Source of the DNA: Candidatus Proelusimicrobium bovinum | GTDB lineage: Bacteria; Elusimicrobiota; Elusimicrobia; Elusimicrobiales; Elusimicrobiaceae | Assembly (NCBI GenBank): GCA_902791965.1 | Contig: CADAXZ010000008.1 | Coordinates: 1-33,747, forward strand | Length of the DNA stretch: 33,747 bases | Direction: 5' to 3' | Part shown: piece after piece, positions 26,855-32,617 of the stretch | Layout of the letters: the number at the start of each line of letters is the position of its first letter | Numbering within the stretch: the first letter of the stretch is position 1 | Notes under the pieces: model-generated | Seen by the model: the letters and a program-made list of their open reading frames with translations, nothing else | The model's database searches: none | What the model was told of the DNA's origin: nothing | Position numbers and translations under genes: made by a program

Positions 26855-27139
26855 TTATTTTTGAGCGGCAAGTGCGGCTTTGGCTTTATCAAATTTACGG
26901 TTGCGGCACATAAGAAACAAATCCGTAAGCACCATAAGAAAATTTAAAATATAAAGCCAAATAACAGCATCAAAACTGTAAAAAACTTTATGGGCTATTC
27001 CGCAAAGATAAGCGATTTCTATGGTAATCATAAAGGAAAAACTTTTCCCTGCGGCCGTCTTTGATTTTATAGATTTACAGATATTGAAAGGCCAAGCCAA
27101 ACCAAAGCCTATCAGCATTAAGGCCTCAAAGATACTCAT
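26855..27139 (-). CDS. small three-helix membrane protein, SemiSWEET/PQ-loop-like
   Basis: 94-residue protein with three hydrophobic helices (about 3-22, 35-52 and 57-78) and a basic tail. The motif FGLAWPFNICKSIKSKTAAGKS between helices 1 and 2 recalls the conserved proline and following loop of PQ-loop/SemiSWEET half-transporters and is shared with small uncharacterised proteins of gut bacteria. The gene is directly upstream of the DAACS symporter with a good AAGGAG ribosome site, so the two form an operon. It might be a partner of the symporter or an independent transporter; this is speculation. Being real is likely from coding character and context. Confidence 0.6.
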   Translation of the reverse strand: MSIFEALMLIGFGLAWPFNICKSIKSKTAAGKSFSFMITIEIAYLCGIAHKVFYSFDAVIWLYILNFLMVLTDLFLMCRNRKFDKAKAALAAQK

Positions 27140-27209: not shown

Positions 27210-28406
27210 TTATTTTTTATTTTGCTGTTGCCTTTCCGCATTTGCAAGCATTAAGGCGAGTTCTTGGTTTTGGATGCGTAATGCAAGCCCCAAGGCAGTA
27301 TTGCCCGATGTGTCTTTTGCTAAAACATCAGCACCGAAATTTATTAACACTTTGGCTATTTCAGATTTACCTTTTGCAATGCCGCTTTCTATTTCCGATT
27401 TGCTTACAGATAAGCATTTCATAAGAGGTGTCCTTCCGAAAATATCTTTTTGGTTTATATCCGCACCGTTAAAAATAAGTTCTTGTGCTGTTTGCCAAAA
27501 GCCTTGGCGGATTGCTTCAAGCAAAGCATTATTACCGCTGTTATTTTTTATGTTTATATCTGCTTTTGCGTCTATAAGTGCGGATAGCGCTTGCAGATTG
27601 TTTTTCTTTACTGCAAGGATAAGACAGGTGTTTCCCATAAAATCTTTTGCATTAAGTTGCGCTCCTTTTTTTATAAGTAATTTTAAAATATCATTTCTAT
27701 CGTTATTGGCCGCTAACATAAGCAGGTTTTGCCCAAAGTTGTTTTTTGTATTCGGGCTTGCCCCTTGCTCTAATAATGTTTCAACTGTTTTTATATCGCC
27801 TGTTATTACGGCATTACACAAGTTTAAATCTTTTTGTTCTGGCGGTATTTTTTGTGGGGGTTCATTTTTATATTTGATTTTGGAATTTTCAAAATGCAGA
27901 CAGTTTTGGTAAATTTCCTGCATTTTTTGTATAGTCCATTTAGGAAATTTTGCAAAATCTTCTTTTAGTTCTTCTTGTATAGCGGGGTTATCTTTTACAT
28001 TATAAAAAGGTGCTAATCTTACTTTTACATATTCTATTGCGTTTTTTAGTATTTCCGCCCCTTTTTGTGCGTTGGAAAATAAATAAATGCGGACTATTCT
28101 TTCTTCTTCATAGAGTGTATCCCAATAAGGCTCTGCTTGCGCTGGATGGCACATATAAGGCAGTTCGGTAGATACTCTGTAATACATTACATAAAACCAA
28201 AAGGCACAGAGGTCCTTTTCAAGTTTATTGTTTTCCCATAAATATATGAAAGTTTCCATCATTATACGCGGGTGCAGGGTTTCAAAAAAATCATCTTTTA
28301 CTCCGCCTTTTATTTCATCTTTAAAAAAATCATTTGCAATTTTTGTTTTTATCTGTAAAGTTGCATAATCCCCGCCCGGCTCTTGCGGAATAAAAAAAGA
28401 TTTCAT
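27210..28406 (-). CDS. ankyrin-repeat protein with uncharacterised N-terminal domain
   Basis: 398-residue soluble protein. Residues 1-185 form a mostly helical region rich in aromatic residues that I do not recognise. Residues about 193-395 contain six ankyrin repeats (for example GQNLLMLAANNDRNDILKLLIKKGA, GNTCLILAVKKNNLQALSALI, GNTALGLALRIQNQELALML). The fifth repeat carries an extra loop (about 333-347). There is no signal peptide, so it should act in the cytosol as a protein-binding module. It overlaps the MFS gene stop by four bases (ATGA), with a GGAGA ribosome site inside the preceding gene. Its partner is unknown; the methyltransferase and MFS genes of the same unit are the first guess. 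Confidence 0.85.
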   Translation of the reverse strand: MKSFFIPQEPGGDYATLQIKTKIANDFFKDEIKGGVKDDFFETLHPRIMMETFIYLWENNKLEKDLCAFWFYVMYYRVSTELPYMCHPAQAEPYWDTLYEEERIVRIYLFSNAQKGAEILKNAIEYVKVRLAPFYNVKDNPAIQEELKEDFAKFPKWTIQKMQEIYQNCLHFENSKIKYKNEPPQKIPPEQKDLNLCNAVITGDIKTVETLLEQGASPNTKNNFGQNLLMLAANNDRNDILKLLIKKGAQLNAKDFMGNTCLILAVKKNNLQALSALIDAKADINIKNNSGNNALLEAIRQGFWQTAQELIFNGADINQKDIFGRTPLMKCLSVSKSEIESGIAKGKSEIAKVLINFGADVLAKDTSGNTALGLALRIQNQELALMLANAERQQQNKK

Positions 28407-29620
28407 AAATTATCTCCGTTCTTTATAAAAATCGTTTGTTTAAGCATCTTTATATACAGTAAAGCACTTACTGCCAGACAGATTATCAGTAGCGCGCCCA
28501 TAGCCTTTAAGCCGATTATATCCAAAAAAGAACCTTCCGCCCAAGAAATCAGCATCAAAGAAGTCCACGATACCAATGTTACCAAACTGCCTATGGTGGT
28601 GCGGTCTTTTGAATTTTTAAATATTTCCGGTATGAATACCAAAAGCAGCATATTGTAAATACGGTCTGTCATAGCAAAAAGCCCTATGAAAGTAATCGCG
28701 GTCCATAAGGGCATAAAACCCCACGCAAAACAGGCAAACAGTATTATGTTGGAAAAAACCGACAGATAAAAAAGTTTTTTGCGGCCGATTTTCATCATAA
28801 CAGGTACTACAAAATTTATTACCGTTTCGCAAATGCCTATAGCCATTAAAGGGCGGGCAAGTTGCGCAGTTTGCAGATGATAATTACCGATAAACCAAAG
28901 CCCTAACATAGAATAAAAACCAAAATAGCAAAAACGGTTAATAAACATAGCGGTAAAAAATTCTTTAAGGTACGGCGTTTGCCAAGCGGTTTTATAGGTG
29001 TTAAATAAAGATGAAGGCGTAAATTTTATTTTTTCTTTATTATCTTTAGGGGCTGCAAGCAGAAAGATAAAACAAAAAACACCTGTTATAAGGCCTGCGG
29101 CGGCAAAAGCAATACGCCAACTTAAAATTGTTCCGCAGTATAAAACCAGCGGCACACCTGCCGCAACTGCCATCGGGCGCGAAGCGGTAAGCACGGTAAT
29201 CATAGGTATATAAAAGCGTTTGTCTATTGTTTCGTATGCAAGCCACCATAACACCGTACTGAAAAGCCCCGCCCCCAGCCCGAACATAAATCTTATAAAC
29301 AAAGAGATATAAAATTGCGGGACCAAAACAAAAGCAGTTATACCGCCGGCCATTAAAATAAGGCTTGCCAAAATTACGGATGATACTTTTTTGCTTTTAA
29401 TCAGTTGCGGTCCTATAAATAATCCGGATACTATACCCGCCGTGCAGGAAGATATAAGCCAAAGTGTTCTTTCCGCCCCAACGCCGAAAAATACACTTAG
29501 CCATTGCACCAGCGGGGAAATAGCGTGGTCAACTGTGCTGAAAGCGAACACCACCGTAAAGGAAGCAATAACCAAAGCCCAGCCTTGAAGCGGCGTTTGT
29601 TTGCGGGTATCTTGTGTCAT
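28403..29620 (-). CDS. MFS transporter
   Basis: 405-residue integral membrane protein with about twelve hydrophobic helices in two halves and a basic central loop (about 185-210: APKDNKEKIKF). It resembles major facilitator superfamily permeases of the general drug/metabolite type; no substrate-specific motif is recognised. The start is ATG 29620, two bases after the methyltransferase stop, with a weak ribosome site; an upstream in-frame start at 29656 lies inside the methyltransferase and is rejected. It sits between a methyltransferase and an ankyrin protein in one overlapping unit, so it might export a modified product. That is inference. Confidence 0.85.
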   Translation of the reverse strand: MTQDTRKQTPLQGWALVIASFTVVFAFSTVDHAISPLVQWLSVFFGVGAERTLWLISSCTAGIVSGLFIGPQLIKSKKVSSVILASLILMAGGITAFVLVPQFYISLFIRFMFGLGAGLFSTVLWWLAYETIDKRFYIPMITVLTASRPMAVAAGVPLVLYCGTILSWRIAFAAAGLITGVFCFIFLLAAPKDNKEKIKFTPSSLFNTYKTAWQTPYLKEFFTAMFINRFCYFGFYSMLGLWFIGNYHLQTAQLARPLMAIGICETVINFVVPVMMKIGRKKLFYLSVFSNIILFACFAWGFMPLWTAITFIGLFAMTDRIYNMLLLVFIPEIFKNSKDRTTIGSLVTLVSWTSLMLISWAEGSFLDIIGLKAMGALLIICLAVSALLYIKMLKQTIFIKNGDNL

Positions 29621-29622
29621 AG

Positions 29623-30273
29623 TTATTTTCCGGCAATTACGGTAGCCATAAAACAAGTGGCTTGTAAAATCTTTTCAATATGAAAACCCGTAAAAAGCAG
29701 ATGGTGCGTAAGTTGTGCCATATCGCAAGGCAGTTCCTTATACATTGTGGTAAAAAAGGCTTCGCGGCAGAAAGGCCATTTATCCCCGTAATATTTAGCG
29801 GCTTGTTTTTCCACAAGGGCAAGATTTTCATTTTTGCGGTGCAGGGCAAAAGCCAAAATCATATCTTCTATAATAAGTTTACCTTCGGGTTTAAGCCAAT
29901 GGTGTATTTTATCAATTAAAATGCCTTTTTCATCATTGTTTAAATGGTGTATGGCTTTGCGGATTGATACTTTTGTAAAGGTATTATTGGGAAAGTTTAC
30001 TTCCTGTAAAGTTGTTTTTATTAAATGCGCTTTTGGGAGTTTTTGCCGCGTTAAAGAAAGTTGCTCATCGGAAATATCAACCCCGCAGACACTTGCTCCT
30101 GTTTGTGCGGCAATGGATAGAAGAGTACCGTCGCCGCAGCCTAAATCAAGCACGCTGTCTTGCTCTTTAAAATCAAACAAAGCGGCATAATCTTGTATAT
30201 TGCCGCGCATATTTTTGTTATACCACTCGGGCAAATCTTTTTTACTCCAATCGGTTGTAGTTCCGTTATTCAT
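29623..30273 (-). CDS. class I SAM-dependent methyltransferase
   Basis: 216-residue methyltransferase with the Rossmann SAM-binding motif VLDLGCGDG at 41-49 and the acidic VCGVDIS at the end of the second strand. It also has a FTKVSIRKAIHHL motif and LKPEGKLIIEDM, which match the Methyltransf_11/25 small-molecule group. The target is not identifiable. It is the first gene of a three-gene - strand unit and is read divergently from the radical SAM gene across a 76-base gap. GGAG lies seven bases before the ATG. Confidence 0.88.
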   Translation of the reverse strand: MNNGTTTDWSKKDLPEWYNKNMRGNIQDYAALFDFKEQDSVLDLGCGDGTLLSIAAQTGASVCGVDISDEQLSLTRQKLPKAHLIKTTLQEVNFPNNTFTKVSIRKAIHHLNNDEKGILIDKIHHWLKPEGKLIIEDMILAFALHRKNENLALVEKQAAKYYGDKWPFCREAFFTTMYKELPCDMAQLTHHLLFTGFHIEKILQATCFMATVIAGK

Positions 30274-30349
30274 AATGTGCTCCGTTAAAACATTTTATAT
30301 AATATACTATTTTTTGCGGGTAATGCTTATATTTTTGTATCATTTATAT

Positions 30350-31327
30350 ATGAGCGATAAAATAAAAAGCAGTGATAGTTGTGATGAAGAAATATTTTTC
30401 GTGCCGGGTTGTTTGGGCACTTGCTGGTATGGTAAATATCATTATTTAGAGCCTTTTACCGGTTGCCAGCACGATTGCGTATATTGTTATGCCAAGGGCC
30501 GTAGCGATGTTATGAAAAAGGTGCAGGCTTTAGGCGGTAAATTTACAGATCCGCAAATCGGCCAAGAGCCTGAAAAAGCCCTCGCCGCGATGAAGAAGGA
30601 AATAGACTCAGACCCAAAAATTCACACGATAAAACTTTCCCGCTATACGGATATTTTCTGTAAAAAATTTGTTGATAACGGATATTCTTATGCCGTATTA
30701 AAACTGCTTTGCGAACATCCTCAAATCAAACGCATTATCATCACGACTAAAGGCATCCCTAATGAAGAAATTATGGGCCTTATTGAAAAATATCCGCAGA
30801 AGTTTTCTTACAGCGCGGCAATAAAACCTGCCGCAAAAATCTGTATGGAAACTAATGTCCCGCCCAGAGAAGAACGCATAAAATATGCCGCAAGGGCCAA
30901 AAAAGCAGGTGCTTTGGTAACTATCCATATGGACCCTCTTATTACAGGCGTAGAAGATACGGAAGAAGTACTTAGACCCTTTTTTAAACAGTTAAAGGAA
31001 GCAGGTCTTAACAGGGTTATGTTTTCTTATCTGCTTTACGATTACACTATCGCAAAAAATATTGTGGAACGCTTCGGGGAAGATTTCTTTGCCAAACTTA
31101 AAGAAAATTATCTGCATAATGACAGGCAGATTTTACCTGCCCAAAAAGAAACAACTTACCACGCTTTAAAACACGAAGTTAAACTTGAAAGCGTAAAGAG
31201 AATTTCAAACTTGCTTAAGGAATACGGTTTTGATTTCGTTGTTTGCGGGCTTAAATCTTCCGACAGCGAAGATGTACGGGATTTAAAGCAGCATTCCCAT
31301 GTGTGCGACGGTAAATTTTACGCTTAA
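30350..31327 (+). CDS. radical SAM protein, SPL (spore photoproduct lyase)-like family
   Basis: 325-residue radical SAM enzyme. The iron-sulfur motif CxxxCxxC is at C39, C43 and C46 in FTGCQHDCVYCYAKGR, the pattern of the SplB-like COG1533 family. Two extra cysteines, C21 and C25 (GCLGTC), precede it, and there are further cysteines near the C-terminus. The TIM-barrel pieces KLSRYTDIF, RIIITTKG and ALVTIHMDPLITG are visible. The family includes spore photoproduct lyase and many uncharacterised members; no sporulation is expected here. I start at ATG 30350, although no ribosome site is visible. An ATG at 30323 in the same frame would add nine hydrophobic residues. The ATP-grasp gene follows five bases later. 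Confidence 0.8.
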   Translation: MSDKIKSSDSCDEEIFFVPGCLGTCWYGKYHYLEPFTGCQHDCVYCYAKGRSDVMKKVQALGGKFTDPQIGQEPEKALAAMKKEIDSDPKIHTIKLSRYTDIFCKKFVDNGYSYAVLKLLCEHPQIKRIIITTKGIPNEEIMGLIEKYPQKFSYSAAIKPAAKICMETNVPPREERIKYAARAKKAGALVTIHMDPLITGVEDTEEVLRPFFKQLKEAGLNRVMFSYLLYDYTIAKNIVERFGEDFFAKLKENYLHNDRQILPAQKETTYHALKHEVKLESVKRISNLLKEYGFDFVVCGLKSSDSEDVRDLKQHSHVCDGKFYA

Positions 31328-31332
31328 AAACT

Positions 31333-32565
31333 ATGGCAAATAAAATCTGGGTTTTAAATCTTGATGATTTCCTTTTTAAAGATAAGGCTTTAGAGGCTTT
31401 GCAGGAACATGCCATAAAATATATACAACTCTTGAAGCCCGGGGATTACTGCGTGCTTTCGCCTTTAATAGAACCCGACGAAGATTTTGTAAATTATATG
31501 GCGCGTATTAAAAAACTTCCGTACCGCCCGTGGATTTTTAAACCTGCCGCACAGAAGAAAGAAGAACGCCTTGTAGATGCCATAATAAAAGATAAAACAT
31601 TGATAGAAAAGTTAAGCGCTCTTTGTAAGCAAGGCTATGTTATGGTACCGTTGATGTACACAAAACGCTTTGAATTTTTAAGCAAGAAATGCGGCAATAA
31701 TTTAGATAATAATTACAAAGCGGTAGAAAACGCAAACAATAAATTATTGTTTAAAGATTTATGTAAAAAATTTCATATTACTACTATTGCACCCGTGTAT
31801 AAAGCCGATAAAAACAAAATGCCGCGCATTTTAAGTACTTTAGATGCCAATGAAACTTATCTTTTGCGCCGTCCTTTTTCGGCAGGCGGATACGGCAATG
31901 TAAAAGGCAAACTTGTAGATTTAATGCCGCTGATAAAAAAATATCACAAGCAAACAGATGTCTATCTTGAACGCTATAAAGATATTTACAGAACCATAGG
32001 CACTTTGGTAATACTTAAAGACGACGGAATTTTCTTTGTGGGCATAGATTGCCAAATTATCCATAAAGAAGCGTGGGAAGGCTGCTTTTTCCCGTTTGAC
32101 CGTCTGCCTGCCAAAATTTTGGATGCAGTACGGGAAAAGACTTTAATGCTTGCAAGTTGCTACTATGGTATGGGTATACGCGGGCAGATAAATTTTGATT
32201 GGGCTATACGCCAAAAAAACGGCGAACTTAAACTGCGCGCTTTGGAATGCAACAGCCGCTATAACGGTTTCGGGTTATGTTTAAGATTGGCTTCCACCGT
32301 TTACGATATTCCGCGTAAAGAACTGCATTTTTATCTTGATACCAAAATGCGTTTTGCGCAGGATTGGACTACCAAAATGGTAATAGAAGAATTGGAAAAA
32401 ATCAATCAGGAAGTTAACCTTCCGCGCGGCGGCGTGGTGCTTACCACAGGCGTAAAAAACGGGCGGGGCGGTTTTTGTTTTATAGGAACATCCCGCAAAG
32501 ATATTGCCGATTTGCGCCGTTGTTTTAAAAATCATATCAAAGGTTTAATCAGCCGTAAGGATTAA
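31333..32565 (+). CDS. ATP-grasp ligase-like protein, PGM1-like
   Basis: 410-residue protein of the ATP-grasp fold. Residues about 1-110 form a pre-ATP-grasp domain of Rossmann type. The glycine-rich ATP loop is SAGGYGN at 183-189, preceded by LLRRPF. Metal-binding residues appear as D289 (INFDW), then E305 and N307 in ALECNSRYNG, the ATP-grasp ending. The C-terminal 60 residues (GGVVLTTGVKNGRGGFCFIGTS) resemble those of PGM1-type peptide ligases. It should join a carboxylate to an amine using ATP; substrates are unknown. It lies five bases after the radical SAM gene with no separate promoter, implying a shared function. No ribosomal precursor peptide is evident nearby. Confidence 0.72.
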   Translation: MANKIWVLNLDDFLFKDKALEALQEHAIKYIQLLKPGDYCVLSPLIEPDEDFVNYMARIKKLPYRPWIFKPAAQKKEERLVDAIIKDKTLIEKLSALCKQGYVMVPLMYTKRFEFLSKKCGNNLDNNYKAVENANNKLLFKDLCKKFHITTIAPVYKADKNKMPRILSTLDANETYLLRRPFSAGGYGNVKGKLVDLMPLIKKYHKQTDVYLERYKDIYRTIGTLVILKDDGIFFVGIDCQIIHKEAWEGCFFPFDRLPAKILDAVREKTLMLASCYYGMGIRGQINFDWAIRQKNGELKLRALECNSRYNGFGLCLRLASTVYDIPRKELHFYLDTKMRFAQDWTTKMVIEELEKINQEVNLPRGGVVLTTGVKNGRGGFCFIGTSRKDIADLRRCFKNHIKGLISRKD

Positions 32566-32583: not shown

Positions 32584-32617
32584 ATATCCCCGTAAACTTT
32601 TATATTTACGGGGATAT
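32584..32617. terminator. convergent stem-loop, probable terminator
   Basis: Perfect 13-bp inverted repeat ATATCCCCGTAAA (32584-32596) / TTTACGGGGATAT (32605-32617) with an 8-base loop, between the convergent ATP-grasp and lipoprotein genes. The flanks are T-rich but lack a clean T-tract on either strand. Its position makes bidirectional termination the natural reading. Confidence 0.65.

Follow-up and report, generated by a model that had tools for sequence, protein, structure and literature searches.

The window, meaning the whole stretch of 33,747 nucleotides analysed here, comes from a draft genome of 1.51 Mb. On its forward strand it carries a gene for an SPL-fold radical SAM enzyme (30350..31327, 325 aa), whose ATG start at position 30350 is preferred over a longer reading frame opening with TTG at 30200. 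After exactly 5 bases (31328-31332) follows a gene for a PreATP-grasp/ATP-grasp ligase of the PGM1/BesA kind (31333..32565, forward strand, 410 aa, ATG start). Open reading frame coordinates, together with Pfam, profile and fold searches, confirm the first-pass annotation of this DNA, which had described an SPL-like radical SAM enzyme and a PGM1-like ATP-grasp protein with 5-base spacing. That annotation had taken the two genes to be the system; the pair stands, whereas the unit is larger and comprises four genes, including a divergent methyltransferase and transporter at 28403-30273. The third member is a class I SAM-dependent methyltransferase (29623..30273, reverse strand, 216 aa), and the fourth is an MFS transporter (28403..29620, reverse strand, 405 aa) whose gene starts 2 bases past the methyltransferase stop codon.

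The two gene pairs are separated by a divergent intergenic region of 76 bp (30274..30349), in which the promoters of both pairs are presumed to lie; a promoter scan gave a signal no better than that of shuffled sequence, and no Rfam element or riboswitch was found at Rfam thresholds anywhere in the window, this region included. On the 3' side of the ligase gene, a strong hairpin with a 14-bp stem (32584..32617, a consensus match only) probably acts as a terminator closing off the cassette. Immediately downstream of the transporter gene lies a gene for an ankyrin-repeat protein (27210-28406, reverse strand), and the neighbourhoods read in relatives show no such gene next to the cassette. A small membrane protein of 94 aa (26855-27139, reverse strand) has, by eye, the look of a SemiSWEET/PQ-loop sugar carrier and is without a Pfam match.

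The four gene products

The radical SAM protein matches the Pfam Radical_SAM model at 2.4e-6, slightly under the gathering score. Its superfamily membership is established by the cluster motif CX3CX2C (C39/C43/C46), which is invariant in 25 homologues, and by a partial TIM barrel in a model (pLDDT 88) that matches radical SAM structures. In a PDB fold search the six best matches were all SPL (E 7e-9, TM 0.64), while a profile search against PDB sequences returned spurious haemoglobin matches only. Six cysteines are invariant in the 25 homologues, namely C25, C39, C43, C46, C299 and C319. Of the two extra cysteines pointed out earlier, C25 is thus upheld and C21 is not, being replaced by Pro, Ala or Ser in several homologues; the invariant C299 and C319 had gone unlisted. 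Arg98 is also invariant, and a motif CDGKFYA is found at the C-terminus.

The SPL fold is best known from DNA repair. In an hhalign profile alignment of the cassette enzyme with Geobacillus SPL, spanning 244 columns, SPL position 140 (Ala in the C140A construct, the catalytic Cys140 in the native enzyme) falls on the invariant Arg98. For this reason the enzyme is unlikely to act in DNA photoproduct repair, and an SPL-type repair role was rejected since the catalytic hydrogen-donor cysteine is missing. The two proteins share the CX3CX2C motif and the fold, but the cassette enzyme differs in this substitution, in three other invariant cysteines and in an operon shared with a ligase and a transporter. 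It also lies well outside the SPL families as modelled, scoring 13.7 bits against a cut-off of 437 for TIGR03886, while TIGR04070 is matched by 1 of 25 members, at 0.0011 and short of the SPL cut-off. The nearest named families in NCBIfam are PA0069/Rv2578c and "radical SAM mobile pair B", which are family names without a known function. All 25 members match the PA0069 and Rv2578c models, with the window protein reaching 30.7 of 360 and 32.8 of 430 bits, respectively, below both equivalog cut-offs. No named subfamily fits, as every NCBIfam match is far under its cut-off, and the possibility raised earlier that the enzyme might group with a known family of unrelated role is answered accordingly: it falls in none.

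Taken alone, the window ligase gives no significant Pfam match; the PreATP-grasp domain PF18604 is recognised in 20 of 24 family members, the window protein not being among them. The family profile nevertheless matches the ATP-grasp peptide ligase 8ynd (3.5e-28), PGM1 (3wvq, 1.6e-13) and BesA (8yi6, 2.8e-12), and the structural model (pLDDT 93) matches the same three folds at E values of 1e-23 to 1e-18. Profile and fold together thus give the PGM1-type arrangement of a Pre-ATP-grasp domain followed by an ATP-grasp fold. The nucleotide- and metal-binding residues are conserved: the NxK motif, the GGxGN loop, D289 and E305-x-N307-x-R309 are intact in the window protein, and N135, K137, K141, the GGxGN loop, E305, N307 and R309 are invariant in the family, with D289 nearly so. 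By sequence and fold the enzyme belongs with BesA, an L-propargylglycine-L-glutamate ligase, and LdmS, an L-aspartate-L-methionine ligase, both of which use free amino acids as substrates, although it scores weakly against their NCBIfam models (8e-8 for BesA, 3.5e-6 for LdmS) and is about 16% identical to BesA when the folds are aligned. We know of no radical SAM partner for either of these ligases.

The methyltransferase carries the motifs D-x-GCG and RKxxHHL; its nearest solved relatives are phosphoethanolamine methyltransferases, in an alignment that covers the SAM-binding core only, and ArsM-type models are among its weak matches. The transporter is a Pfam MFS_1 protein whose nearest models include Cmx/CmrA, the MxcK protein of myxochelin export and the bacillibactin exporter BcbE. 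These models are mostly exporters of chloramphenicol or siderophores, and the importer models 2A0115 and FslD also score; judged by such resemblances, the protein may work in the direction of export.

Pairing and inheritance of the cassette

The radical SAM gene occurs in 25 of 341 Elusimicrobiota genomes (24 full-length genes and one at a contig edge), and the ligase gene lies directly downstream of it in all 25, often with a 4-bp overlap. A comparison of neighbourhoods in other genomes, proposed with the first-pass annotation as a check, therefore finds the two genes always adjacent, and this rules out a chance pairing. The ligase is found in 26 of the 341 genomes, namely the same 25 and a single-contig genome, G018, which holds a ligase and a diverged methyltransferase without an orthologous radical SAM gene or transporter orthologue. 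The two remnants in G018 lie at L056:8706-9929 (ligase) and L121:6545-7213 (methyltransferase).

A scan of genome contigs yielded 27 loci, including records of UBA8530, UBP9, Riflebacteria and Oligoflexia. The operon order methyltransferase, radical SAM enzyme, ligase, transporter is found in Elusimicrobiota and on UBP9, Riflebacteria and UBA8530 contigs, and most loci outside the gut genera form one operon with overlaps of 1-4 bp or nearly so (L059/L087, L062/L076, L065/L089, L082, L084, L085). The methyltransferase and transporter pair is inverted in the window and its closest relatives, where it is transcribed divergently from the radical SAM and ligase genes. Two gut Elusimicrobia (G035 and G038) have these two genes together on a separate contig, so that all four are kept, and the Oligoflexia locus L091 has the operon of methyltransferase, radical SAM and ligase genes with no MFS gene nearby.

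Among 100 relatives, a transporter orthologue is present in 16 of 17 genomes with the radical SAM and ligase pair versus 1 of 83 others (Fisher 2e-16), and the corresponding figures for the methyltransferase are 16 of 17 and 5 of 83 (Fisher 2e-13); as the genomes are related, these counts are interdependent, and they carry no correction for shared ancestry. The methyltransferase thus occurs without the pair in five relatives and the transporter alone in one (G009, L129:6605-7981). In one genome, G048, which is 92% complete, the pair is accompanied by neither a transporter nor a convincing methyltransferase, and some absences of this kind may be assembly gaps, as most of the genomes are MAGs. 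Across 25-29 loci, the four genes show correlated protein distances (r 0.84-0.95, Mantel p 0.001). The strongly supported placement of the UBP9-type loci within Elusimicrobiota indicates that the cassette has been transferred horizontally as a block. The four genes form one unit, previously unnoticed, whose carriers are dispersed among Elusimicrobiota and a few further groups of bacteria. A further locus, L083, filed as a Burkholderiales MAG, has a cassette nearly identical to those of the UBP9 loci L082 and L084, and its record is probably misnamed or misbinned for that reason.

In many order-level relatives, a gene for an M20 family metallo-hydrolase (NF010589) adjoins the methyltransferase gene, whether or not the other cassette genes are there (L062:6349-7584, L060:6731-8098, L125:5948-7225, L122:9026-9706, L130:4695-5933, L131:6811-8046, L132:6905-8203). 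It was rejected as a fifth member since 99 of 100 relatives have it and it also stands beside lone methyltransferases; a gene so nearly universal is an ordinary neighbour. Its near-universality makes the site shared by the methyltransferase and M20 genes look ancestral, with the cassette often lost there, sometimes leaving the methyltransferase behind. With respect to mobile elements, no plasmid match was obtained and no relative was found in viral contigs. PADLOC returned no matches for the radical SAM enzyme, the ligase or the transporter, and only MTase domains for the methyltransferase; with nothing beyond such generic domains, an anti-phage defence system was ruled out.

A proposed pathway and its alternatives

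The view that no precursor peptide is visible was borne out on a wider scale: within 1.5 kb of the cassette at 23 loci, no conserved small open reading frame was found other than frames lying in an M20 gene or matching between one pair of close relatives. The compact operons also contain no internal gap able to hold a precursor gene. Together, these two results argue for free amino acids as substrates. The reading preferred here, to which we assign a probability of roughly 0.6, is that the cassette is a horizontally moving four-gene set for the synthesis and export of a small, non-ribosomal compound derived from amino acids, in agreement with the earlier expectation of a small conjugate or modification. 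It draws on the gene content, the folds, the intact motifs, the co-conservation and co-inheritance of the four genes and the lack of a linked precursor peptide; from these we infer the likely substrates and product, the order of steps, the direction of transport and a biological role as an antimetabolite, a signal or a metallophore.

In such a pathway, the radical SAM enzyme would bind SAM on a [4Fe-4S] cluster and generate a 5'-deoxyadenosyl radical, which would abstract hydrogen from a free amino acid or a similar small substrate. The invariant Arg98, occupying the site of SPL Cys140, would probably serve in substrate binding and not in hydrogen donation. The ligase may then activate a carboxylate as an acyl phosphate and couple this to a second amino acid through its amine, in the manner of BesA, LdmS and PGM1, while the class I methyltransferase would add a methyl group and the MFS transporter would carry the product out of the cell.

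This chemistry class has a precedent, because the pheganomycin cluster unites a radical SAM enzyme, a PGM1-type ATP-grasp ligase and a methyltransferase (PMC8939145). The earlier statement that no established system was known with exactly this pair was consequently too strong. The pheganomycin cluster is the nearest described ensemble, with a PreATP-grasp ligase of the same type (ligase fold match at E about 1e-19); by the features tested, it is not the same system. It has a ribosomal precursor, whereas none was found for the cassette, which consists of four genes only, without an amidinotransferase or other pathway genes, has an SPL-fold radical SAM enzyme and its own MFS transporter, and occurs in other phyla.

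An unlikely alternative, though the one that survives best, is salvage or detoxification, in which the transporter would import a compound from the host or its diet and the three enzymes would convert or disarm it, for example by glutamylation or methylation. Symporter models do match the transporter, small-genome bacteria of the gut or rumen are numerous among the carriers, and BesA-type ligases can add a glutamyl group. The nearest models of the transporter, however, are mostly exporters, non-gut lineages are also among the carriers by their record titles, and the retention of four dedicated genes together, even where they are split, is explained at least as well by biosynthesis.

Less probable still is a pathway of the pheganomycin kind, with a small ribosomal peptide from another part of the genome as the partner to which the ligase would attach a radical-modified amino acid. 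Exactly such a reaction is known for PGM1, which of all the relatives is characterised best, and its gene stands beside those of a radical SAM enzyme and a C-methyltransferase (PMC8939145). The linked ribosomal precursor typical of pheganomycin-like RiPPs is nonetheless absent within 1.5 kb at the 23 diverse loci and has no room inside the operons, and the cassette transporter is of the MFS type and not a peptidase-containing ABC exporter.

Modification of a macromolecule, such as a protein, a tRNA or an envelope lipid, is improbable to a somewhat greater degree. Pyrrolysine is made by radical SAM and ATP-grasp enzymes (PylB/PylC), and these resemble the cassette in that an ATP-grasp enzyme couples a radical SAM product to an amino acid; radical SAM enzyme and ligase might thus act like PylB/PylC or like tRNA-modification enzymes, and PylC does appear in the ligase fold list, at rank 31. 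Yet the cassette ligase is closer in sequence to BesA, LdmS and PGM1 than to PylC, which is of another ATP-grasp subfamily, and the PylB/PylC product goes to tRNA with no exporter, whereas a dedicated transporter makes little sense for macromolecule modification. The sporadic occurrence of the cassette (25 of 341 Elusimicrobiota genomes) is also unlike that of a housekeeping modification.

An organoarsenical pathway resembling arsQML with an added ligase is very improbable and was rejected as a poor match: the arsinothricin operon does encode a transporter, a methyltransferase and a radical SAM enzyme for a small exported amino acid (PMC8552651), and ArsM-type models are among those that weakly match the methyltransferase, but ArsL has only three conserved cysteines, at 194/198/201, after a long N-terminal part, unlike the 325-aa enzyme with its motif at 39/43/46, ArsQ is a GntP-type permease and not an MFS_1 protein (PMC8552651), arsQML lacks a ligase, and the cassette neighbourhoods that were read contained no recognisable ars genes.

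The preferred reading of a biosynthetic and export cassette can be taken one step further, more tentatively. The cassette could represent a natural-product pathway of a new, minimal class: an SPL-fold radical SAM enzyme, repurposed for a free amino acid, would act with a PGM1-type ligase and a methyltransferase, and the product that Elusimicrobiota and members of other little-studied phyla export would be a dipeptide-like antimetabolite or signal. To our knowledge, hardly any specialised metabolite has been characterised from Elusimicrobiota, UBP9 or Riflebacteria, and no description of this four-gene combination was found in the open-licence papers searched. The set is self-contained and small enough for expression in a laboratory host, and it offers a direct test of SPL-like radical SAM function outside DNA repair, as well as of the export of amino-acid-based compounds by gut, rumen and environmental bacteria. 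The genome of the window encodes a second SPL-like radical SAM protein (G000:C2:11850-12806; L134:1201-2502), which matches TIGR04070 at 3e-33 yet below the cut-off, has a long N-terminal extension and is encoded directly after an aldo/keto-reductase-like gene.
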